Below are positions 6,870-59,639 of a stretch of 64,000 nt of DNA, piece after piece. Numbering within the stretch: position 1 is the first letter of the stretch; each line of letters opens with the position of its first letter. The stretch is from NCBI RefSeq assembly GCF_019904175.1, contig NZ_CP061913.1, positions 4,030,001 through 4,094,000 on the forward strand. Direction: 5' to 3'. The notes below the pieces were generated by a model. The model ran no database searches. It saw only the letters and a list, made by a program, of their open reading frames with translations, and was not told where the DNA came from. This DNA comes from Dactylosporangium vinaceum. GTDB taxonomy: Bacteria > Actinomycetota > Actinomycetes > Mycobacteriales > Micromonosporaceae. Position numbers and translations under genes: made by a program.

Positions 6870-7834
6870 GCTTCGGATTCCAGACGCACGTCCACGGCCA
6901 CGCCCCGGCCCGGGAGCTACTGCCCGGCCTCGTCGACCTGTTCGTCGCGGCCGAGGAGCTCGGCTTCACCTCCGGCTGGCTGGCCCAGCACCATCTCGGC
7001 AACGACGCCGGCCGGCTGCCCTCGCCACTCGTGCTCCTGGCCGCCGCGGCCGAGGCGACCAGGAGCATCCGGCTCGGCACCAGCGTCGTCGTGCTGCCCC
7101 TGGAGCACCCGATCCGCCTCGCCGAGGATGCCGCCGTCCTCGACACCCTCGCCGGTGGCCGCCTCGAGCTCGGTCTGGGCGTCGGCGGCCCGTCGGCGCC
7201 GGAATTCGCCGCGTTCGGCCGCGACGCCGGCCGGCGCCACGAGCTCTACACCGAGCACCGCGACCGCCTCCTGCACCTCCTCGGCGGCGGCGACATCGCC
7301 GCCGGGCTGCGGGCCGGCCCGGACGCACCCGGGCTGCGCGCCCGGATCTGGGAGTCACCGTCCACGCCCGAGCGGGCGGCCGCGGTCGCCGCGGCCGGGC
7401 ACGGGCTGCTGGTCGGCATCGGCCCCGGCGCCGTGCAGCGGGCCCTGGCCGACGCCTACCGCGCCGCCGGCGGCACCCGGGTCGCGGCGTTCCGCGGCGG
7501 CTTCCCGGCCCTCGACGCCGGCGGCGACCGGGAGAGCCAGGCCGCGCTGCTGTGGCCGGACGTGCGCGGATTCGCCGACGGGCCCCTGTCGCGGCAGTAC
7601 CTCGGCGAGCACCCGGGTCCCCACGACGTCCTCGCCGCCCTGAACGTCCACTACGGCAGCGGCGCCGAGGTGGCCGCCTCGGTGCGGGCCGACCCGCTGC
7701 TGCCCGTCGCCGCCGACTTCGTCTTCGCCGTCCAGGCCGCCAGCACGAGCATCGGCACCGCCCTGCGCACCCTGGAACGCCTGGCCACCGATGTCGTCCC
7801 CGAACTCGCCGGAGCGCTGCATGCCACGCCCTGA
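6866..7834 (+). CDS. LLM flavin-dependent monooxygenase (KPN_01858-like)
   Basis: 322 residues, GTG start in a GTGA overlap with the previous gene. Same subfamily as its neighbour (AQHHLGNDAGRLPSP, SIRLGTSVVVLPLEHP, LAEDAAVLDTLAGGR, PDAPGLRARIWESPS). Adjacent paralogues may form a heterodimer, as LuxA/LuxB do, or act on different substrates; the sequence does not decide. No internal Met and no Cys. Confidence 0.9.
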   Translation: MSFGFQTHVHGHAPARELLPGLVDLFVAAEELGFTSGWLAQHHLGNDAGRLPSPLVLLAAAAEATRSIRLGTSVVVLPLEHPIRLAEDAAVLDTLAGGRLELGLGVGGPSAPEFAAFGRDAGRRHELYTEHRDRLLHLLGGGDIAAGLRAGPDAPGLRARIWESPSTPERAAAVAAAGHGLLVGIGPGAVQRALADAYRAAGGTRVAAFRGGFPALDAGGDRESQAALLWPDVRGFADGPLSRQYLGEHPGPHDVLAALNVHYGSGAEVAASVRADPLLPVAADFVFAVQAASTSIGTALRTLERLATDVVPELAGALHATP

Positions 7835-9128
7835 CCACCTGCAGTTCGGCGCACTCGTCCACGGTTCCGGCGGGCACATCGCCGGCTGGCGGCACCCCCG
7901 GGCCAACCCCGACGGCGAGCTCGACATCGACTTCCACGTCCGCCTCGCGCGCCTCCTCGAAGACGCCGGGTTCACGGCCCTGTTCGTCGCCGACGTCGTC
8001 GCCGTCTGGGGCCACCAGCTCGACTCGCTGCACCGCACCACCCGTGCCGACTACCTCGAGCCGATCACCCTCCTGGCCGCCCTGGCCCCGCAGACCTCCC
8101 GGATCGGCCTCGTCGCCACCGCCACCACCAGCTACAACGAGCCATACAACCTGGCGCGCAAGTTCGCCTCCCTCGACCACATCTCCGGCGGCCGGGCCGG
8201 CTGGAACGTCGTTACCAGCGTCGTGCCCCTGGAGGCGGCCAACTTCGGCCGGGCCGAACACTTCGGCCACGCCGAGCGCTACGCCCGCGCCGCCGAGTTC
8301 GTCGACGTCGTCAAGGGCCTGTGGGACTCCAACGCCGACGGCGCACTCATCCGCGACAAGGCCTCCGGGGTGTACATCGACCCGGCCCGGCGGTTTCACC
8401 TCGACCACCGCGGCGAGCACTTCACCGTCGCCGGCCCGCTCAACCTGGCCCGCCCGCCGCAGGGGCACCCGGTGCTGTTCCAGGCCGGCGCGTCCCCGAC
8501 CGGCCGGGCCTTCGCCGCCCGGGTCGGCGAGGTCATCTTCACCGCACCCGTCAGCGTCGCCGAAGCCGTCGACTACCGCACCCGCCTCGACGCCGACGTC
8601 ACCGCGGCCGGCCGCGACCCCGGCGACGTGCGCGTCTGGCCCATCCTCACCCCGATCGTCGCCGACACCGACGCCGAGGCCGCCGAAATCCTCGCCGAGC
8701 TCGGCTCCCTCATCCATGACGACGTCCTGCGCCGCCTCGTCCAGGACAACTTCGGCGACGAGGACTTCAGCGACCTCGACCTCGACGAGCCGCTGCCCGA
8801 CTTCGGCACCGCCACCAACCGCTCGCAGAGCCGCCGGGCCGGCCTGCTCGCCCTCGCCCGCGGGGAGCAGCTCACCCTGCGGCAGCTCGCACTGCGCTTC
8901 TCGGCCCGGGCCGACACCGTCGGCGCCGCCACCACCGTCGCCGACCGGATCGCCGCCGTGTGGGCGACCGGCGCCGTCGACGGCTTCAACGTCTCCTTCC
9001 CCTACCTGCCCGAGCAGGCCGAAAGGTTCACCGCCGAGGTCCTGCCGATCCTGGCCGACCGCGGCCTGTTCCGCCCGCCGACCGGCACCACACTGCGCGA
9101 ACAGCTGGGACTGGAGCGAGCCGCATGA
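7821..9128 (+). CDS. LLM monooxygenase of the NtaA/SnaA/DszA family
   Basis: 435 residues. I use the ATG at 7821 (MPRPDHLQFG), which aligns with family N-termini; it overlaps the upstream gene by 14 bp. Family motifs: TSYNEPYNLARKFASLDH, SGGRAGWNVVTS, GLWDSNADGAL, HRGEHFTVAGPLN, RPPQGHPVLFQAG and a DGFNVSFPYLP block near the end. Relatives (DszA, NtaA, CmoJ/YtnJ) are FMNH2-dependent and cleave C-S or C-N bonds, so an organosulfur substrate fits the operon. No internal Met, no Cys. Confidence 0.92.
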   Translation: MPRPDHLQFGALVHGSGGHIAGWRHPRANPDGELDIDFHVRLARLLEDAGFTALFVADVVAVWGHQLDSLHRTTRADYLEPITLLAALAPQTSRIGLVATATTSYNEPYNLARKFASLDHISGGRAGWNVVTSVVPLEAANFGRAEHFGHAERYARAAEFVDVVKGLWDSNADGALIRDKASGVYIDPARRFHLDHRGEHFTVAGPLNLARPPQGHPVLFQAGASPTGRAFAARVGEVIFTAPVSVAEAVDYRTRLDADVTAAGRDPGDVRVWPILTPIVADTDAEAAEILAELGSLIHDDVLRRLVQDNFGDEDFSDLDLDEPLPDFGTATNRSQSRRAGLLALARGEQLTLRQLALRFSARADTVGAATTVADRIAAVWATGAVDGFNVSFPYLPEQAERFTAEVLPILADRGLFRPPTGTTLREQLGLERAA

Positions 9129-10441
9129 CGACCCGGCAGCTGCACCTCAACGGGTTCCTGAAGGCCGCGGGGGAATACCACGCCGGCTGGCGGGTGCCCG
9201 GCAACCCGCCCGACGCCGGCGTCAACTTCCCGTTCCTGGCCGAACAGGTGCGCCGGCTCGAGGCGGCGACCTTCGACTCCGTGTTCCTGCCCGACCTGCT
9301 CGGCGTCCCGGACGACCCGCCCGCCGTGACCGAACGGGTCGCCTGGTCCAACGACACCCTGGAACCGACCACCGTCCTGGCCGCGCTGAGCACGATCACC
9401 AGCCGCATCGGCCTCGTCGCCACGGCGTCGACGTCCTACAACCAGCCGTACACCGTCGCCCGGGTCTTCGCCTCGCTCGACCACCTGTCCAAGGGCCGGG
9501 CCGGCTGGAACGTCGTCACCTCGCTCAACGACGCCGAGGCCCGCAACTTCGGGCTCAGCGCGCACCTGGGCCACGCCGAGCGGTACCGGCGGGCCGAGGA
9601 GTTCTTCGACGTCGTCGCCGGGCTGTGGGACTCCTTCGACGACGGCGCCGTGCGGGCCGACCGGGTCGCCGGCCGCTTCTTCGACCCCGCCGGACTGCAC
9701 CGGCTCGACCACCACGGCGAGTTCTTCGACGTCGCCGGGCCGCTGAACATCCGCCGCCCGCCGCAGGGCCGCCCGGTCATCGCCCAGGCCGGCTCGTCCG
9801 GCCCCGGCCGCACCCTCGCCGCCCGGATCGCCGACGTCGTGTTCACCCGGGCCCTGCCCCTAGCCGACGCCCAGGCCTATTACGCCAGCGTCAAACAGCA
9901 GGCGTCCGCGTTCGGCCGGGCCCCGCTCGTCCTGCCCGAACTGGCCACGGTCGTCGCACCCACCCGGGCCGAGGCCGAGGACCGCTTCGCCGCCGTCCGC
10001 GACCTGCTCGACCCGCGGGTCGCGCTCGCCGACGTGCAGTACTGGGCCGGCGTCGACCTCACGGGCCTGCCCCTGAGCGCGCCGCTGCCGCCCCTCGCGG
10101 AAGGCAACCGCAGCACCGGCGCCCAGGCCGAGATCTACGCTCAGGCGGCCCGGGACAACCTCACGATCGGCGACCTCGTCCAGATCGTCACCGACGGCGA
10201 CGGCGCGATCATCGGCACCCCGGCCGACGTCGCCGACCACATCGAGGAGTACTTCACCCAGGACGCCGCGGACGGCTTCAACGTCTCGTTCCCGTGGCAG
10301 CCCGCCACCCTGGTCGACTTCACCGAGCTCGTCGTCCCGGAGCTGCGCCGCCGCGGCCTGTTCCGCACCGAGTACACCGGCGCCACCCTCCGCGACCACC
10401 TCGGCCTGCCCCGCCCGCCGTCCCGCTACGCGCCGGACTGA
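9125..10441 (+). CDS. LLM monooxygenase of the NtaA/SnaA/DszA family
   Basis: 438 residues, start in an ATGA overlap with the previous gene. Motifs: LHLNGFL at the N-terminus, STSYNQPYTVARVFASLDH, KGRAGWNVVTS, GLWDSFDDGAV, HHGEFFDVAGPLN, RRPPQGRPVIAQAG, DGFNVSFPWQP, and the terminal FRTEYTGATLRDHLGL. Second DszA-type enzyme in tandem; likely FMNH2-dependent. No flavin reductase is encoded nearby. Last gene of operon 1. No internal Met, no Cys. Confidence 0.92.
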   Translation: MTTRQLHLNGFLKAAGEYHAGWRVPGNPPDAGVNFPFLAEQVRRLEAATFDSVFLPDLLGVPDDPPAVTERVAWSNDTLEPTTVLAALSTITSRIGLVATASTSYNQPYTVARVFASLDHLSKGRAGWNVVTSLNDAEARNFGLSAHLGHAERYRRAEEFFDVVAGLWDSFDDGAVRADRVAGRFFDPAGLHRLDHHGEFFDVAGPLNIRRPPQGRPVIAQAGSSGPGRTLAARIADVVFTRALPLADAQAYYASVKQQASAFGRAPLVLPELATVVAPTRAEAEDRFAAVRDLLDPRVALADVQYWAGVDLTGLPLSAPLPPLAEGNRSTGAQAEIYAQAARDNLTIGDLVQIVTDGDGAIIGTPADVADHIEEYFTQDAADGFNVSFPWQPATLVDFTELVVPELRRRGLFRTEYTGATLRDHLGLPRPPSRYAPD

Positions 10442-10477
10442 TCTGCACTGTGGTTGCCGACGCCGGTGACGTGGCCG

Positions 10478-10498
10478 GGCGATCGGCAGCTGATCGCC
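10478..10498. terminator. Weak hairpin between convergent operons
   Basis: GGCGATC and GATCGCC, a 7-bp stem with a 7-nt loop, in the 107-bp gap between the end of operon 1 and the end of metI. There is no T-run. It may limit read-through; the assignment is weak. Confidence 0.3.
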
Positions 10499-10548
10499 GG
10501 GATGGACGGCGTCGAGTAGAACCTGTACCAGTACGACATCCAGGGTTG

Positions 10549-11208
10549 TCAGCGACGCAAGGCGCGGCGGGCGAGGAAGTTGCCGAGGAACTGGCCCGCC
10601 TGCACGATCACGATGATGGTCGCGACGGTGATGTAGACGACCGGCCAATTGTACCGCTGGGAGCCGTACGTCACCGCGAAGTCGCCGAGGCCGCCCCCGC
10701 CGAACAGTCCGGCCTGCGCGGACATGTCGACGACGCCGACGAAGATGAACGTGTAGCCGAGAATCACCGGTCCGAGGGCCTCCGGGACGACGACCGTGAG
10801 CAGGATGCTGATCGGCCGGGCGCCCGCGGCCCGGGCCGCCTCGATGACGCCGGGCTCCACGGCCAGGAGATTCTGCTCGACGATCCGGCTGACCGCGAAG
10901 GCGGCCGCCAGCGACAGTGCGAACGTCACCGCGTCGGTGCCGATCGTCGTGCCGATCGCGACGAGCATGAGCGGCTGGATCGCGGTGAGGAAGATGACGA
11001 ACGGGATCGGCCGGACCACGTTGACCAGGATGTTGACCGCGATGAACACCGCCCGGTTGGCCAGCAGGCTGCCCGGGCGGGTCGCGTAGAGCACCAGCCC
11101 GAGGCCGAGGCCGAGCAGGCCGCCGACCACGACCGAGATGATGACGATGTAGAATGTCTGCCCGATCGCCGCGCGGAAAACCGGCAGGTTGGCGATGAAC
11201 TCATCCAT
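10549..11208 (-). CDS. metI: Methionine ABC transporter permease
   Basis: 219 residues from the ATG at 11208 (MDEFIANLPVF), which has GGTGGAG upstream and overlaps metN by 8 bp; 217 is the usual MetI length. About five membrane helices, the MetI motif RPIPFVIFLTA, and an EAA loop around VIEAARAAGARP. MetI forms the channel of the MetNIQ importer for methionine and methionine derivatives. Two internal Met, no Cys. Confidence 0.95.
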   Translation of the reverse strand: MDEFIANLPVFRAAIGQTFYIVIISVVVGGLLGLGLGLVLYATRPGSLLANRAVFIAVNILVNVVRPIPFVIFLTAIQPLMLVAIGTTIGTDAVTFALSLAAAFAVSRIVEQNLLAVEPGVIEAARAAGARPISILLTVVVPEALGPVILGYTFIFVGVVDMSAQAGLFGGGGLGDFAVTYGSQRYNWPVVYITVATIIVIVQAGQFLGNFLARRALRR

Positions 11209-12229
11209 GGGTCTCCACCTCGACACCGTCGGCGGCCAGGGCGGCGAGGGCCGCGTCGACCGCCGCCGCCGGGCCGGTCAGCTCGAACGTGAGGCTGCCG
11301 ACGGCCCGGTCCTGCAGCTCGCTGATGCCGCCGTAGACGACGGCGGCGGCCACGCCGTGCTCGAGGAACGCCGCGGCCAGGGCGGTCTGGGCGACGGTAC
11401 CCTCGCGAATGGCGATGGTGACCAGACGGCCGGAGTGCCGGCGGCGCAACCGTTCCAGGGTCTCCGCGGACGGCCGGTCCCGCAGCGCTCCCCGGACAAA
11501 ATCGGCGGCGGCGGTACTCTGCGGACGCGCGAACACGTCGTAGACGCTCCCGGTCTCCACGACCCGGCCGCCGTCCATGACCGCGACCCGGTCGGCGACG
11601 GCCCGGATCACGTCCAGCTCGTGCGTGATCAGCATGATCGTGACGCCCAGCTCCCGATTCACCCGCCCCAGCAGCGCCAGTACCTCGGCCGTCGTACGCG
11701 GGTCGAGCGCGCTTGTCGCCTCGTCCGCCAGCAGCAGCGCCGGCTCGGTGGCGAGGGCCCGGGCGATGCCGACCCGCTGCTTCTGCCCGCCCGAGAGCTG
11801 CTCTGGATGGTCGTGGGCGCGGTCCAGCAACCCCACGAAGTCCAGCAGGCGGGCCACCCGCCGGTCCCGCTCGGCCCGCTCGACGCCGGCCACCTTCAGC
11901 GGGTAGGCGACGTTGCCGGCCACGGTGCGGGACCGGAACAGGTTGAACTGCTGGAAGATCATGCCGATGTCGCGCCGGACCCCGCGCCGCTGCGCCTCGG
12001 GCAGCGCGCCGATCTCCCGGCCACCGACGAACACCCGGCCGTCCGTCGGCGTCTCCAAACCGTTGACGAGCCGGATCAGCGTGCTCTTGCCGGCCCCGGA
12101 CTGGCCGATGACGCCGAACACCTCGCCCCGCTCGACCTCGAGGCTGACGTCGTCGACGGCGACCACCCGGGGACCTTGACGCCCCCGGGTGAACGCCTTG
12201 GTGACGTGCTCGAACCTGACGTGCGGCAC
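11201..12229 (-). CDS. metN: Methionine ABC transporter ATP-binding protein
   Basis: 342 residues, GTG start one base after the metQ stop codon. Walker A GQSGAGKST, Q-loop MIFQQFNLF, signature LSGGQKQRV, Walker B LLLADEATSALD, H-loop ITHEL. A C-terminal NIL domain (about 265-342), which in MetN proteins binds methionine and shuts the transporter off, is present. Standard MetN length and layout. Three internal Met, no Cys. Confidence 0.95.
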   Translation of the reverse strand: MPHVRFEHVTKAFTRGRQGPRVVAVDDVSLEVERGEVFGVIGQSGAGKSTLIRLVNGLETPTDGRVFVGGREIGALPEAQRRGVRRDIGMIFQQFNLFRSRTVAGNVAYPLKVAGVERAERDRRVARLLDFVGLLDRAHDHPEQLSGGQKQRVGIARALATEPALLLADEATSALDPRTTAEVLALLGRVNRELGVTIMLITHELDVIRAVADRVAVMDGGRVVETGSVYDVFARPQSTAAADFVRGALRDRPSAETLERLRRRHSGRLVTIAIREGTVAQTALAAAFLEHGVAAAVVYGGISELQDRAVGSLTFELTGPAAAVDAALAALAADGVEVETHG

Positions 12230-37372: not shown

Positions 37373-37397
37373 TTAACCTATCTTACCGATATGAATA
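37373..37397. promoter_or_regulatory. Candidate operator F2 (operon 4 upstream region)
   Basis: Arms TTAACCTAT and ATATGAATA around the spacer CTTACCG, just after the peptidase E stop codon and about 105 bp upstream of operon 4. With F1 it forms a pair 81 bp apart. The 9-7-9 layout and ACCG-ending spacer match sites A, B and C1. Confidence 0.5.
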
Positions 37398-38198: not shown

Positions 38199-38223
38199 AA
38201 TTCCTATCGATCTCGTAGGATAC
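38199..38223. promoter_or_regulatory. Candidate sulfur-regulon operator, site E (M20 gene)
   Basis: Arms AATTCCTAT and GTAGGATAC around the spacer CGATCTC, ending 5 bp before the M20 start codon; a bound protein would cover the ribosome binding region and probably the transcription start. Confidence 0.55.
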
Positions 38224-39620: not shown

Positions 39621-39645
39621 TTTTCCTATTATCCAGATAGGAAAG
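39621..39645. promoter_or_regulatory. Candidate sulfur-regulon operator, site D (operon 5)
   Basis: The clearest copy: arms TTTTCCTAT and ATAGGAAAG (8 of 9 complementary) around the spacer TATCCAG, ending 21 bp before the operon 5 start. Confidence 0.7.
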
Positions 39646-51483: not shown

Positions 51484-51508
51484 ATTTCCTATCTTGCAAA
51501 TAGGGAAT
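51484..51508. promoter_or_regulatory. Candidate sulfur-regulon operator, site C2 (transporter side)
   Basis: Arms ATTTCCTAT and ATAGGGAAT (8 of 9 complementary) around the spacer CTTGCAA; the symmetry extends outward to GGC and GCC, giving 12-bp arms with one mismatch. It is 43 bp before the permease start and 41 bp from site C1 centre to centre. Confidence 0.7.
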
Positions 51509-54524: not shown

Positions 54525-55451
54525 TCATGCCCCGGTCGTCGCGTAGCGGCTGGCCGGCCGGTCCAGGCCGAGGTGCCCGCGAAGTGTGGTGTGCGTGTAC
54601 TCGTGCCGGAACGCCCCGCGCTCGCGCAGGATCGGCAGCAGCTCGTCGACGATCGCGGTGAGATCGACCGGTAGCTCGGCCGGGTGCAGCCGGAAGCCGT
54701 CGACGCCGGCGCGCTCGTCGAGCAGCCGGTCGGCGATCTCCAGCGGGGTCTCGGCGGCGAAGGAAACGGCGACGTCGGCGAAGACCTTCGCCCCGGTGCC
54801 GGCCGGACGGGGCGCGCCGGCCGGCACGAAGACCAGATCGGCCGCCACGGCCGGCCCGGAGGCGAGGGCGGCGACAAGCGGGCGGCCCTGCGGTGGCCGG
54901 GGCGTGGTCGACGGGCCGCGGACGCTGGAGTGCCGGCCCGTGAAGCCGATGTCGTGCCGCTTGTCCAAGTTGACGAATCGGCCGGTCGAGTCGTCGCGGA
55001 TCGCCGTGTTGTCATCCCAGCTGTCCCACAGCCGCCGGACCGTCTCGACGTGGTCGGCGGCCACCTCCGGCGAGCCTGCGGTTGCGGCGAGCCAGCCGGC
55101 CCGGCCGTGGCTGAGGTAGTCCAGCGTGGCCAGCTGGGTCGAGATGTGGAACGGCTCGGTGGTCGCGACCCCGACGACCGGCACGAGGCCGATGCCCGTC
55201 GTCACCGGCGCGATGCGTGCGGCGATGAGCAGGGCCGCCAGCCGGCCCTGGACCCGGTCGGCGTGGCCGGTGACGGTGCCGCCGTCCGCGATCGTGACGA
55301 AGTCCAACCGGCCCCGCTCGGCCTCCCGCACGAGCGACAGCCAGTACGCCGGCGTGAACAGCGTGGACGGGCGGGCATCCGCTCGGCGCCAGACGTCCGG
55401 ATCGGACACGGCGTCGTCCAGCGCGACGGCGAGATGCAGCTTGGCGCTCAT
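54525..55451 (-). CDS. LLM monooxygenase of the NtaA/SnaA/DszA family, shortened
   Basis: 308 residues from the ATG at 55451, in an ATGA overlap with the upstream gene. Starts LHLAVALDDA; keeps YLSHGRAGWLAAT, RRLWDSWDDNTAI, FTGRHSSVRGPSTT, RPPQGRPLVAALASG, DGFRLHPAELP and terminal FRHEYTHTTLRGHLGL. Relative to the ~440-residue family about 130 residues between the QGRP strand and the C-terminal helices are absent. No internal Met, no Cys. Confidence 0.88.
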   Translation of the reverse strand: MSAKLHLAVALDDAVSDPDVWRRADARPSTLFTPAYWLSLVREAERGRLDFVTIADGGTVTGHADRVQGRLAALLIAARIAPVTTGIGLVPVVGVATTEPFHISTQLATLDYLSHGRAGWLAATAGSPEVAADHVETVRRLWDSWDDNTAIRDDSTGRFVNLDKRHDIGFTGRHSSVRGPSTTPRPPQGRPLVAALASGPAVAADLVFVPAGAPRPAGTGAKVFADVAVSFAAETPLEIADRLLDERAGVDGFRLHPAELPVDLTAIVDELLPILRERGAFRHEYTHTTLRGHLGLDRPASRYATTGA

Positions 55452-56188
55452 ACCGCGAACACCTCGGTGGTGGCGTGGAACGCGGGGATGGTGTAGAGGT
55501 GGCGCGCGTAGGCCTGCAGGTTCGGCCACCCCGCCAGGCCGCCGTGGCGGATGAGTGCCACGTAGAGCCGGATGTCGGCCTCCGTCACGGTCTCGCCGAC
55601 CAGGTAGGCCCGGTCGGCCAGCCGCTCGTCGAATTCGGCCAGCCGGGGCGCGAGTGCCACGCCCGGGGCCAGCCAGCCGGTCAGGGCCTCGATCTCGTCG
55701 CGCAGCCGGTCCGGATAGGTTTCGACGACCGGGGTCGCCACGTCGCGGAAGCGGGTCGCGAAGTCGATGCCGATGGTGCGGTAGTCGTTACTCAGCACGG
55801 TGCGGGTCGCCCGGTCCCACAGCGTCGGCACCGAGATGTGACCGTCGAATCCGGGCTCGGTCTGCTCGTAGGCCTGGCGCAGCAGCGTGAAGCCGTTGAC
55901 CGGGTCAGGGCCGTAGCGCTCGCGGAAGGCCCAGCCGCGACCGTCGCGAGCGTTGTCCACATAGGACACACTTACCGCGTCGTGCAGTCCGGCCAGCTCG
56001 AGGGCCAGGGTGGCGCGGTGGGACCACGGGCAGAACCAGCCCGCGTAGAGGTGGTAACGACCGGCGACGCCGTGCTCGATGCGCCCGGTGAACCGATACA
56101 GGGGATCGGGGTTGGGGATGCGGTATTCGCCGTACGCGTCGGTGTCGACGGGGCTGGCGAGCCGGCTGGAGCGCGGCAGAGTCGTCAT
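55448..56188 (-). CDS. Glutathionyl-hydroquinone-reductase-like thiol transferase (ECM4/YqjG type), short
   Basis: 246 residues from the ATG at 56188 with GGAGGT upstream. Thioredoxin-fold N-terminal half with the catalytic Cys in GWFCPWSHRATLALEL and the cis-Pro motif ISVPTLWD; a C-terminal GST helical domain (VGETVTEADIRLYVAL). Family enzymes reductively remove a thiol adduct (glutathione or, in actinobacteria, presumably mycothiol) from quinones. At 246 residues it lacks ~75 of the usual length, partly the H-site segment after the RLY helix. The catalytic Cys is the only Cys and there is no internal Met. Confidence 0.88.
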   Translation of the reverse strand: MTTLPRSSRLASPVDTDAYGEYRIPNPDPLYRFTGRIEHGVAGRYHLYAGWFCPWSHRATLALELAGLHDAVSVSYVDNARDGRGWAFRERYGPDPVNGFTLLRQAYEQTEPGFDGHISVPTLWDRATRTVLSNDYRTIGIDFATRFRDVATPVVETYPDRLRDEIEALTGWLAPGVALAPRLAEFDERLADRAYLVGETVTEADIRLYVALIRHGGLAGWPNLQAYARHLYTIPAFHATTEVFAV

Positions 56189-56213: not shown

Positions 56214-56238
56214 TAATCCTACTTGCCAAATATGGTTT
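56214..56238. promoter_or_regulatory. Candidate sulfur-regulon operator, site G (divergent)
   Basis: Arms TAATCCTAC and ATATGGTTT around the spacer TTGCCAA, 26 bp from the thiol-transferase start and ~125 bp from the fusion gene at 56364. Confidence 0.5.
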
Positions 56239-56363
56239 AAGCTAGGGGCCGTGACGCCGGCCCCGCTCGCCACCTGCGCAGGCGGACCGCCCACCTGGGC
56301 GGTCGAGACCGAGCCGATCACTGAGATCGTCTACTATCATGTCAGTCGGAAAAGTGGGGTTGC

Positions 56364-58910
56364 GTGAGCGAAGTCGATGTAGCCATCGTCGGCGGCGGTG
56401 CCGCGGGCGCGCTGACGCTTGCCCACCTCGCCCATCTGGCCGGGGGCCGGCTCCGGATCGCCCTCATCGACCACGGCCCGGGCGACTTCGGCAGCGGCAC
56501 GGCCTACCGCACCAACGACCGCGCGCATCTGCTCAACGTCCGCGCCGCCGCGATGAGCGCCTGGCCCGACCGGCCCGGCCACTTCACCGACTGGCTGACC
56601 GCGCACGGTCACGACCAGGTGACCGGCGAGGACTTCGTGCCGCGGGCCGCGTTCGGCGCCTACCTCGCCGCCCTCACCCGCGAGGCGGCCGGCGCCGATC
56701 GGCCCGGTGGCGACGTGCGCCTGATCCAGGGCCGGGCCAACGGCGTGCACCGCGGCCCCGGCGGCTGGACGATCACCCTCGAGGGCACCGCCCCGGTCCA
56801 CGCGGCCGAGGTCGTGCTGGCGATCGGCATCGAGCCGCCCGCGCAGGCCTGGGTGCCCCGCCGGCTGCGCGGCCGGCCCCGGTTCGTCGCCGATCCCTGG
56901 CGGCCGGGCGCGCTGGACGGCGTCGGGCCGGACGACCCGGTCCTCATCGTCGGCACCGGGCTCACCGCCGTCGACGTGGCCGTGACGCTGTCGGCCCGCA
57001 CCCGGCGACCGATCACCGCCACGTCCCGTAACGGCCTGCTGCCCGCGGCGCACACGCGCGAGGTCCGCGCACCGATGCCGCTGGACGGCGCCGCAGTGCC
57101 GGCCGGCATCCGGGCGCTGCGCCACCTCGTGCACGACCGGGTCCGCGCGTCGATCGCGGCGACCGGTGACTGGCGGCCCGCCATCGACGGACTGCGGCCG
57201 CACACCCAGGCGATCTGGGCCGCGCTGCCGGAGGCCGACCGGCGCGAGTTCCTGCGGCGCGACCTGCGCCGCTGGGACAACGCCCGGCACCGCATGGCCC
57301 CCGCGGTCGCCGCCACGATCACCGGCCTGCGGTCCGAGGGCCGCCTGGTGATCGCCGCCGAGCACCCGTCCGTCGCCATCGCGATCGCCGAGCCCGGCAG
57401 CTGGATCGTCAACACCACCGGCCCCGACCCGGACCTGGCCGGCTCGACCAACCCGATCATCCAGCAGCTCTTCGCAGCTGGGCTCGTCACCGCGGGCCCG
57501 CTCGGGATGGGCTGGGCCACCACCGGTGACGGGCAGCTGCGCGACGCCTACGGCGAGCCGGTGCCGGGCCTGTGGACGCTCGGCAGCACCCGCCGCGGCC
57601 AGCTGCTGGAGACCACGGCCGTGCCCGAGATCCGGGCCCAGGCCGCGGCGCTGGCCGCGCGGCTGGCGGGTCGGCCGGCCGCTGCGGGCGGAGCGCGGAG
57701 CCCGCGGGTCCGCCGGGACCAGTACGGCCTGCCGGTCCTCGCCTCGGCCCGGGCCGCCGAGCACTTCGACGACGCGGTCCGCCGGGTCCTGCGGGTGCAG
57801 CAGGGCGCCGGCGCCGCGCTGGATGCGGCGACCGGCGAGGACCCGTCGTTCGCCCTCGCGCACGCTGTCCGCGCGCTGCTGGCCGTGGAGGGGGTCATCG
57901 ACGGCGACGCCCCGGCCGCGCTGGCCGACGCCGAGCGAGCCGCGCGGGCGCGCACCGACGCCCGGACCGGGAGCCTGCTGCGTGCCGTGGCCGCCCGGGT
58001 CCGGGCGAACGATCCGGCCGGGCTGCTGCGGCACATCGACGACTTCCCACGCGACGCGCTGGTCGTCAACGCCTGCGTGCCGACGATCGCGTTCGGCGGG
58101 GCGACCCAGGTGCCGCAGCACGCGTGGGCGGTCGTCGAGCGGCTCGCCCCGGTCTACGGCGAGGACTGGTGGTACCTGGGGCTGCTGGCCTTCGTGCGGC
58201 AGGAGCAGCACCGCTGGCCGCAGAGCGCCGAGCTCGCCGAGCGGTCCCTCGCCGCCGACCCGGCCGGCGGCCACGCGGCTCACGCGCGCAGCCACGTGTA
58301 CTACGAGACCGGCGAGCACCGCGCCGGCCTCGCCTGGCTGGACGGGTGGATCGACGGCCCAGGTGCCGCCGCGTTTCAGGGCGCGCACTTCTCGTGGCAT
58401 GCGGCCCTGCACGAGCTGGCCCTCGAACGCTGGACCGACGTGTCCGCCCGGCTGCGCGGCCCGCTGTCGCCCCGCTCGGTCGGCGGCGTGCGGGCCCTGG
58501 TGGACTCCGCGTCGCTGCTCTGGCGCTGCCGTGTCCTCGGCGCCCCGCCCCAGCCGCTCGCGATCGACGAGGTGCTGGGCGTCGTGCCGAAAGAGCTGCT
58601 GGCCGAGCCGCAGACCGCGTTCATCGGCCTGCACGCCGCCCTCGCGCTGGCCGCCGCCGACGACCTCGGCGGCCTCGACGCGCTGGCCCGGCACGCCGCG
58701 ACCCGCACCGAGCCGGCCTTCGACCTCGTCGCGGCGCTCGTGCGGGCGCTGCGTGCCTACCTGGCCGGCGACTACGACCGCACTGTCGAACTCATCTCCC
58801 GCCGGACCGGGGAGTGGGTCCGGCTCGGTGGCAGTGACGCCCAGCGGGAGGTCATCGACGACACCCTGCTGAGCGCCTTGCAGCGTTCGCAGCGGTCCCG
58901 CATCGGCTGA
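56364..58910 (+). CDS. FAD/NAD(P)-binding oxidoreductase fused to a TPR (TTC38-like) domain
   Basis: 848 residues, GTG start. Residues ~1-435: an FAD/NAD(P)-binding domain of the SidA/hydroxyacylglutathione-like 'FAD-NAD(P)-binding' type, with VDVAIVGGGAAGALTLAHL, VLAIGIEPPAQ, a second nucleotide motif LIVGTGLTAVDVAVTL, and LWTLGSTRRGQLLETTAVPE. Residues ~445-848: alpha-helical repeats like tetratricopeptide protein 38 (VQQGAGAALDAATGEDPSFALAHA, ARSHVYYETGEHRAGLAWLD, FSWHAALHELALERW). I would expect these as two genes; here they are one frame. Function unknown; a flavin-dependent oxidation is likely. Four internal Met, two Cys. Confidence 0.85.
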   Translation: MSEVDVAIVGGGAAGALTLAHLAHLAGGRLRIALIDHGPGDFGSGTAYRTNDRAHLLNVRAAAMSAWPDRPGHFTDWLTAHGHDQVTGEDFVPRAAFGAYLAALTREAAGADRPGGDVRLIQGRANGVHRGPGGWTITLEGTAPVHAAEVVLAIGIEPPAQAWVPRRLRGRPRFVADPWRPGALDGVGPDDPVLIVGTGLTAVDVAVTLSARTRRPITATSRNGLLPAAHTREVRAPMPLDGAAVPAGIRALRHLVHDRVRASIAATGDWRPAIDGLRPHTQAIWAALPEADRREFLRRDLRRWDNARHRMAPAVAATITGLRSEGRLVIAAEHPSVAIAIAEPGSWIVNTTGPDPDLAGSTNPIIQQLFAAGLVTAGPLGMGWATTGDGQLRDAYGEPVPGLWTLGSTRRGQLLETTAVPEIRAQAAALAARLAGRPAAAGGARSPRVRRDQYGLPVLASARAAEHFDDAVRRVLRVQQGAGAALDAATGEDPSFALAHAVRALLAVEGVIDGDAPAALADAERAARARTDARTGSLLRAVAARVRANDPAGLLRHIDDFPRDALVVNACVPTIAFGGATQVPQHAWAVVERLAPVYGEDWWYLGLLAFVRQEQHRWPQSAELAERSLAADPAGGHAAHARSHVYYETGEHRAGLAWLDGWIDGPGAAAFQGAHFSWHAALHELALERWTDVSARLRGPLSPRSVGGVRALVDSASLLWRCRVLGAPPQPLAIDEVLGVVPKELLAEPQTAFIGLHAALALAAADDLGGLDALARHAATRTEPAFDLVAALVRALRAYLAGDYDRTVELISRRTGEWVRLGGSDAQREVIDDTLLSALQRSQRSRIG

Positions 58911-58994
58911 ACCGGAGGCGGCCAGCGAGACGATGTCAGGGGCACTATAGTCAGCTGGTCCTTACCGATCATGCCGCCGGACCTGAAGGTTGCC

Positions 58995-59639
58995 ATGCCG
59001 ACGCTGCCACTGTCCCCCGATGAGCTCCTGACCACGACCCGATCCGTCCGTCGACGGCTGGACCTGTCGCGTCCTGTGCCGCTACAGCTGGTCCGGGAGT
59101 GCCTGGAGATCGCGCTCCAGGCGCCGTCGGGCTCCAACGCACAACAATGGCACTGGATCGTGGTGACCGATCCCGAGCAGCGCCGGGCGATCGGCGCCGT
59201 CTACCGGCGCGCGTTCACGGCCTACGCGCAGGCGGGTGGCACGAATCCGGACCGCTACGCCACGGATCCCGCCCGGCAAGCGGTACAGCGCCGGGTCGGG
59301 GCCAGCGCGGCCTGGCTGGGCGAGCACATGGGTGAGGTGCCGGTCCAGGTCATCGCCTGCCGCCGGGTGACCGCGCTGCCGGCGGGCAACCAGGCCGACA
59401 TCTGGGGATCCCTGCTGCCGGCGGCCTGGAGCTACATGCTGGCCGCCCGGGCCCGCCGCCTCGGCACCGCGTGGACCACCCTCCACCTCGATCATGAGGC
59501 CGAGGTGGCACAGCTGCTCGGCATCCCGGCCGACGTCCGCCAGGGAGTGCTGATCCCTACGGCCTACTACACCGGCGAGACCTTCAAGCCGGCACCCCGC
59601 GAGCCGCTCGACAACGTCCTGCACATCGACCGCTGGTAG
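58995..59639 (+). CDS. Nitroreductase family protein
   Basis: 214 residues from the ATG at 58995, placed by AAGG 5 bp upstream; an ATG at 58971 would add 8 residues but has no ribosome binding site. FMN-binding nitroreductase fold: TTRSVRRRLDLSRPV, LQAPSGSNAQQWHWIVVTD, and ARARRLGTAWTTLHL with LGIPADVRQGVLIPTAY. Typically reduces nitro groups or quinones, and some members reduce flavins. Whether it supplies FMNH2 to the LLM enzymes is open. Ordinary Met and Cys content. Confidence 0.9.
   Translation: MPTLPLSPDELLTTTRSVRRRLDLSRPVPLQLVRECLEIALQAPSGSNAQQWHWIVVTDPEQRRAIGAVYRRAFTAYAQAGGTNPDRYATDPARQAVQRRVGASAAWLGEHMGEVPVQVIACRRVTALPAGNQADIWGSLLPAAWSYMLAARARRLGTAWTTLHLDHEAEVAQLLGIPADVRQGVLIPTAYYTGETFKPAPREPLDNVLHIDRW

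Follow-up and report, generated by a model that had tools for sequence, protein, structure and literature searches.

The 64,000-nucleotide stretch of the Dactylosporangium vinaceum genome studied here (contig NZ_CP061913.1, positions 4,030,001 to 4,094,000; hereafter, the window) contains a gene for an 848-residue protein in which a flavoprotein binding flavin adenine dinucleotide (FAD) and NAD(P) is fused to a second half with a predicted tetratricopeptide repeat (TPR) fold. The fusion is old and widespread in the class, both halves have intact motifs, and the second half carries twelve residues, five of them histidines, that are nearly invariant among its relatives. We infer, with a probability of roughly 0.4, that the gene encodes a redox enzyme of two modules, in which the flavoprotein half cooperates with chemistry performed in a histidine-lined groove of the TPR half. 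An initial annotation had proposed a single 848-codon frame joining an FAD/NAD(P)-binding domain with two nucleotide-binding motifs to a series of helical repeats, the join lying near residue 435–450 in an Ala/Gly/Arg-rich linker; frame, motifs, and linker were all borne out. The gene is composed as follows:

56364–58910, forward strand: fused gene, FAD/NAD(P)-binding half and TPR-fold half, 848 residues (open reading frame list, PF13454, and codon guanine-plus-cytosine (GC) content; the architecture recurs at 26 places in 25 further genomes)
56364–57668, forward strand: N-terminal half (N-half), residues 1–435, PF13454 NAD_binding_9 (E = 5.4e-36; 26 of 26 aligned N-halves match the family)
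56391–56408, forward strand: dinucleotide-binding motif 1, GGGAAG, residues 10–15, predicted FAD site (G10, G12, and G15 invariant in 26 aligned N-halves)
56952–56966, forward strand: dinucleotide-binding motif 2, GTGLT, residues 197–201, predicted NAD(P)H site (G197, G199, L200, and T201 invariant in 26)
57639–57728, forward strand: Ala/Gly/Arg-rich linker, residues 426–455, QAAALAARLAGRPAAAGGARSPRVRRDQYG
57684–58907, forward strand: C-terminal half (C-half), residues 441–848, predicted TPR superhelix (family profile, predicted fold, and structural matches)
58281–58295, forward strand: H640-xxx-H644, on one A helix (58 of 58 distinct proteins)
58386–58400, forward strand: H675-xx-W678-H679, on the following A helix (58 of 58)
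58503–58526, forward strand: D714 ... L719-x-R721, on the following A helix (58 of 58)
58632–58634, forward strand: H757, on the following A helix (57 of 58)
58827–58844, forward strand: G822-x-S824-xx-Q827, at the start of the last helix (58 of 58)

The frame runs unbroken from a GTG start at 56364, the reading frame being open already from 56325, in a host genome that consists of a single 11.96-Mb contig. Neither a frameshift nor a chimaeric join is indicated, since the GC content of codon positions 1/2/3 is coding-like from end to end (0.78/0.59/0.95 in the N-half, 0.94/0.71/0.91 in the linker, and 0.82/0.54/0.95 in the C-half). A one-off fusion or an assembly chimaera is ruled out by the other genomes, as 26 of the 43 places examined outside the own genome (25 genomes) carry a fused gene.

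At least 26 of the 296 genomes of the class, the window genome included, contain the fusion, and they are distributed among seven GTDB families (f1, f10, f15, f19, f20, f28, and f30). The C-half is present in 50 of the 296 genomes, at 55 places. Apart from the 26 fused genes, the 43 examined places (out of 54 outside the own genome) comprise 16 with the C-half only and one (L138) without such a gene; the fusion counts are lower bounds, because 11 of the 55 places were left unexamined and L138 yielded no gene with the gene caller. Within the window's GTDB family (150 genomes), matches to the protein occur in 73 genomes, most of them confined to the N-half; the C-half was found in five (own genome included), and only here were both halves seen in one frame. 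A phylum-wide search of 396 genomes, less sensitive with four candidates scored per genome, gave 12 genomes with a match, six of them only at E near 1e-4, and scans of viral sequences gave no lead. The fusion also occurs on two Streptomyces plasmids, one of them the same as a contig of G260 (equal length, identical protein core). The PF13454–TPR architecture is already present in RefSeq under the generic name "FAD/NAD(P)-binding protein," which describes the N-half only: single proteins of Streptomyces plasmids, WP_327257990.1 and WP_329417872.1, contain matches to both window halves (identities of 42.5% and 45.7%, with 96% and 85% of the query covered, respectively). The initial annotation knew of no described function for such a fusion; none came up in the literature, but the fusion itself is no rarity.

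Genomes with the two halves as adjacent separate genes were also looked for, and none was found: a C-type gene is found in 0 of 33 N-only loci and an N-type gene in 0 of 13 C-only loci. The Dactylosporangium regions with a lone C-half have no adjacent N-type gene either, a scan of genome contigs gave ten loci, each with a lone C-half and no N-half within the flanks, and no C-type gene was found in the regions of those family matches that extend beyond residue 440 across a stop codon (e.g., G075, G055, and G115).

We regard the fusion as old, and the halves as long together, because the fused N-halves, including that of the window, form a single clade of 18 rows (support 100/98) in the N-half tree against 29 N-only proteins. 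This tree leaves out eight near-identical fused rows, L114 (a further fused gene), and four N-only proteins shortened by the gene caller, and its N-only sample is drawn from the window's GTDB family alone, which bears on the wider root. With both halves in one frame and its N-half within the fused clade, the window protein belongs to the fused family. A recent local fusion in Dactylosporangium is ruled out, since the window N-half groups with the fused proteins and not with the N-only proteins of its own family; its exact position is unsure because a long branch leads to the window row in the N-half and the C-half tree alike. Two changes of the fused label are needed to account for the C-half tree, and with the root as drawn, these are apparently a single fusion followed by the loss of the N-half in six proteins of f28. 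Lone C-halves between uvrA- and uvrC-type genes (names from protein starts) were observed at L132, L133, L135, L136, L137, and L146, all in f28.

The N-half is a member of PF13454, scoring 124.3 bits against a gathering cut-off of 21.8. Besides the motif residues listed above, D204, S221, and R222 are invariant in the alignment of 26 N-halves, from which L114 was left out. The N-half profile aligns with portions of NAD(P)H flavoproteins that have two Rossmann domains, namely mycothione reductase (5.9e-6), thioredoxin-reductase-like proteins, and flavin monooxygenases. The flavin monooxygenases and the thioredoxin-reductase-like ferredoxin-NADP reductases resemble the N-half in having two Rossmann domains, with profile matches that are weak and cover the N-half only in part; class B flavin monooxygenases are marked by an FxGxxxHxxxW/F fingerprint. 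A disulfide reductase of the mycothione or thioredoxin reductase type is excluded, because residues 1–440 contain no cysteine and, hence, no redox cysteine pair. Stand-alone PF13454 flavoproteins (approximately 420–490 residues) share the N-half, the motifs, and its length with the window protein but lack the TPR half, and none of the 29 in the comparison belongs to the fused clade.

The domain search recommended for both halves thus succeeded for the N-half; the window C-half alone has no Pfam or NCBIfam match at E 0.01, but its relatives match several TPR families (TPR_19 in 10 of 19). The family profile of the C-half matches designed consensus TPR proteins (1.3e-13), and its fold, predicted from 11 sequences, is a TPR superhelix of repeated helix pairs (predicted local distance difference test, pLDDT, 73.5; predicted template modelling score, pTM, 0.75). 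The C-terminus of the window protein falls short of those of most aligned relatives (alignment A5). The family may be TTC38/StaR-like (cd05804), with human TTC38 as a putative eukaryotic relative; TTC38/StaR-like proteins are of the TPR type and similar to the C-half in length, and they are not known to be fused to a flavoprotein. Scans of the C-half and its relatives with Pfam and NCBIfam turned up no TTC38/StaR-specific model.

The repeats anticipated by the initial annotation are therefore of the TPR type, but the C-half is more than plain repeats, as it carries a histidine signature. The full set of twelve residues (H640, H644, H675, W678, H679, D714, L719, R721, H757, G822, S824, and Q827) was found in 57 of 58 distinct aligned proteins from actinobacteria and proteobacteria; the sole exception, L145, has F in place of H757 (H317 in C-half numbering). 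In an alignment of 44 rows, H200, H204, H235, W238, H239, D274, L279, R281, G382, S384, and Q387 (C-half numbering) are invariant, and H317 is conserved in 98%; the set of 58 adds lone proteins of Burkholderia, Sphingobium, Tardibacter, Methylobacterium, Paraburkholderia, Skermanella, and Verminephrobacter. Four more lone relatives outside the alignment (L168–L171) all have HxxxH, HxxWH, and GGSxxQ strings, and three of the four have a D....L.R string.

From C-half residue 160 onward, ten polar residues are conserved in at least 95% of the 44 rows; nine of them are on A helices (109 residues in total), none is on a B helix (70 residues), and the tenth, S824, sits just ahead of the last helix, A and B helices having been assigned by alternation along the model. 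In TPR superhelices, A helices line the inner face, so the conserved polar residues on them should line one groove of the modeled C-half. In the model, the signature looks like an active or a metal site, and the HxxxH and HxxWH strings on adjacent predicted helices, together with the aspartate and the fifth histidine, plausibly form a candidate set of metal ligands.

The C-half is best read as half of a redox enzyme because it has long been tied to an intact NAD(P)H flavoprotein. In the mechanism that we propose, the N-half, as a flavoprotein with two dinucleotide-binding domains, would hold FAD and receive electrons from NAD(P)H, and the five histidines, the aspartate, the arginine, and the GGSxxQ turn of the C-half groove would form a catalytic site, which quite likely binds a metal. 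The fusion would keep the two sites together, such that one small-molecule substrate is oxidized or reduced by the flavin and converted in the groove; alternatively, the flavin may supply electrons to the groove site. Lone C-half relatives often occur in transport settings (an ATP-binding cassette (ABC) operon in three Dactylosporangium genomes and a major facilitator superfamily (MFS) gene in 6 of 10 plasmid cases), which we count in favor of this proposal. The best guess for the substrate in D. vinaceum would be an organosulfur compound, since the gene sits in what looks like an organosulfur-scavenging region. The elements nearest to the gene are the following:

55448–56188, reverse strand: glutathione S-transferase (GST)-like gene, divergent from the fused gene (PF13409, 8.9e-7; start from the gene caller)
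54525–55451, reverse strand: luciferase-like monooxygenase (LLM) gene, a flavin monooxygenase resembling NtaA/DmoA (PF00296, 1.3e-14; TIGR03860, 1.5e-52, below cut-off)
56217–56235, forward strand: operator-like palindrome, weak copy close to the start of the GST-like gene (3 mismatches)
56332–56350, forward strand: operator-like palindrome, weak copy ending 14 bases 5' of the fused gene (3 mismatches)
58971–59639, forward strand: nitroreductase-family gene, 3' of the fused gene on the same strand (PF00881, 1.9e-22)

The divergent GST-like and LLM genes are the thiol-transferase/LLM pair that the initial annotation had placed beside the fused gene. As for the sulfur operator reported with them, two weak palindrome copies, each with three mismatches, lie between the GST-like gene and the fused gene. 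If up to 3 mismatches are allowed, the window contains nine copies of the palindrome TCCTAT-N7-ATAGGA, a candidate operator for the region, where 2.18 would be expected, and none of 100 shuffles reached nine; this count is partly circular because the pattern was derived from the same intergenic stretches. Other intergenic copies are located at 37376–37394, 38202–38220, 39624–39642, and 51487–51505, of which that at 39624 is perfect and two have one mismatch. Across positions 1–64000, we found approximately nine LLM-type genes, several oligopeptide-type ABC operons, amino-acid-type ABC transporters, MetNIQ-like and cystine-like transporters, and acyl-CoA-dehydrogenase-like genes, many of the names being read by eye from gene calls or protein starts; most of the window thus has the look of a single large region for organosulfur scavenging.

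That this setting is accidental, the gene having no part in sulfur supply, is close to an even chance in our estimate; such an accident would be compatible with any of the explanations weighed below and is judged separately. The sulfur setting put forward in the initial annotation holds for this genome, with its organosulfur-type neighbors, but is not general, as the 26 other fused genes show no excess of sulfur genes over N-only loci. LLM genes occur in 5 of 26 fused versus 8 of 34 N-only regions (33 in the neighbor analysis, no N gene being called in L056), SBP5-type genes in 2 of 26 versus 0 of 34, and cysteine dioxygenase in 0 of 26 fused regions, several of which, cut by contig ends, are shorter than the N-only ones and therefore less likely to show a neighbor. 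The LLM and cysteine dioxygenase counts lend no support to a sulfur function shared by the entire fused family, and the window genome is the only one of its family seen with the fusion. Against an accident speak the weak operator-like sites at the promoter of the fused gene, with the circularity mentioned, and the N-only relatives, 4 of 33 of which adjoin a cysteine dioxygenase gene and 7 of 33 of which have an LLM gene at most 5 genes away; Pfam confirmed one cysteine dioxygenase, one LLM gene, and one rhodanese among these neighbors. The two Streptomyces plasmids differ from the window in this respect: NZ_CP109001 has no sulfur-scavenging genes within 8 kb of the fused gene, whereas on NZ_CP108489, cysC/cysD lie at approximately 6 kb, which also argues against an accident.

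Stand-alone PF13454 proteins adjoin cysteine dioxygenase at L034 (8673–11196), L046, L064, and L033, with a rhodanese in three of the four, hinting at a role of these proteins in cysteine sulfur use.

Most known TPR domains are docking surfaces, and the C-half could be an ordinary scaffold of this kind, tying the flavoprotein to a partner and using its conserved residues to bind a peptide or a partner protein. Both sequence and structure support the TPR fold that such a scaffold requires. Docking surfaces, however, usually drift with their partners, whereas here twelve residues, 5 of them histidines, are fixed in 57 of 58 proteins of two phyla with very different neighbors. A signature that stays constant, polar, and rich in histidine while its partners differ so widely is more readily explained by a catalytic site than by a surface for docking, and we consider the scaffold improbable.

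A sensor for a small ligand or a peptide, switching the flavoprotein on in the manner of the Rap and NprR receptors, is another explanation to which we give little credence. In the structural comparison of the C-half model, Rap superhelices occupy ranks 1–7 (Z 18.6 to 16.1), NprR reaches 14.7, and several lone relatives adjoin helix-turn-helix regulators and transporters. These receptors share the superhelix shape of the C-half, whereas their identity to it is 5–9% in the top rows and they have no flavoprotein. Unrelated TPR proteins, subunits of the anaphase-promoting complex (APC/C), score up to Z 15.7, which means that the match to Rap does not stand out; the structural rows for the modeled C-half show shape, not function, and a common TPR superhelix says nothing of the latter. 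Receptor families also tend to vary their ligand-binding residues, and the signature residues do not vary.

Least probable is that the N-half alone acts as a flavin monooxygenase, with the C-half merely shaping a dimer or the substrate pocket: the N-half profile does match several flavin monooxygenases, N-half relatives that lack a C-half abound in the window's family (the majority of the 73 matching genomes among 150), and some N-only relatives adjoin LLM monooxygenase or cysteine dioxygenase genes, but lone C-half relatives hold the same signature with no N-type gene nearby, so its constancy is not owed to serving this flavoprotein.

Several observations weigh against a two-module redox enzyme as well. 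The C-only relatives retain the signature without a flavoprotein, so the groove can function without one. At a conservation threshold of 80%, three polar residues fall on B helices too. The C-half model is of middling confidence, given its pLDDT and the 11 sequences behind it, and provides a helix assignment only; its score against the APC/C subunits, cited above, belongs here too. The single-sequence model of the N-half is unusable (pLDDT 38.9), and no solved structure of either the C-half or the N-half family was found among the structure-profile matches. The 27th fused gene, L114, has its first FAD motif in a different frame, just upstream of the remainder (6900–7431), which suggests a sequencing error or a broken gene. 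None of the regions of the 26 other fused genes revealed conserved neighbors that would name a substrate.

The surroundings of the lone C-half relatives are diverse. In three Dactylosporangium genomes (L047, 9042–10343; L048, 8934–10235; L049, 8872–10197), the gene lies inside an oligopeptide-type ABC operon with a DUF1684 gene, and in one of the three, LLM genes are found upstream of this operon. Of the ten lone relatives opened on plasmids, six adjoin an MFS transporter gene, which is directly downstream in five and adjacent on the opposite strand in one, and no such gene was seen at the other four. Three of the six MFS-linked relatives have genes of the AhpD/carboxymuconolactone-decarboxylase type, cupin or ChrR genes, and FAD or amine oxidoreductase genes within approximately 8 kb; none of the FAD-oxidoreductase or amine-oxidase genes close to three of the lone relatives from proteobacteria matched the N-half profile. 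A unit of a helix-turn-helix regulator, a signature TPR protein, and an MFS transporter was observed on five proteobacterial plasmids (L162–L166, approximately 9000–12000), with an insertion sequence element separating the regulator from the rest in L165. As a general operon for lone relatives, this arrangement was only partly borne out, the four cases without an MFS gene departing from it. A divergent subgroup of signature-bearing proteins (approximately 400 residues) comprises L098, L100, L102, L103, L105, L106, and L104 from Streptomyces, Micromonospora, and Verminephrobacter. In Micromonospora (L050, the same protein as L105), the gene lies between ATP-grasp and methyltransferase genes, as in a biosynthetic cluster.

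The presumed human relative gives a further, indirect line of comparison. Panobinostat, a drug considered here for its link to TTC38, is a hydroxamate. Panobinostat has been reported to target human TTC38 (PMC6885700, PMC9118197), and rare, damaging variants of TTC38 increase the level of X-22162, an unnamed metabolite in urine (PMC7878905); the TTC38/X-22162 locus appears likewise in PMC5780481. Drug binding and the rise of X-22162 would fit an enzyme with a hydroxamate-binding site, if the presumed kinship holds. A far-reaching extension, which we regard as unlikely, is that the proteins of the TTC38/StaR-like "TPR" family are metalloenzymes of a class not yet recognised, built on a TPR superhelix and with a groove center of five histidines and one aspartate, and that the actinobacterial fusion is a self-sufficient form with its own NAD(P)H-flavin supply, which would reveal the function of human TTC38. 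No description of the fusion or of the histidine signature was found in the literature consulted on TTC38, StaR, X-22162, and PF13454; the nameless fusion itself was never searched for and subscription journals lay mostly outside this survey, so this silence is only weak evidence that no description exists.

TPR domains are classed as surfaces for docking, and if the proposed redox role is correct, the C-half would be an enzyme under a scaffold name. The fusion offers a first clue to the chemistry of the C-half, namely redox chemistry with NAD(P)H, and a compact protein in which to study it. If the presumed kinship is right, the orphan human TTC38 may become approachable through this bacterial relative.

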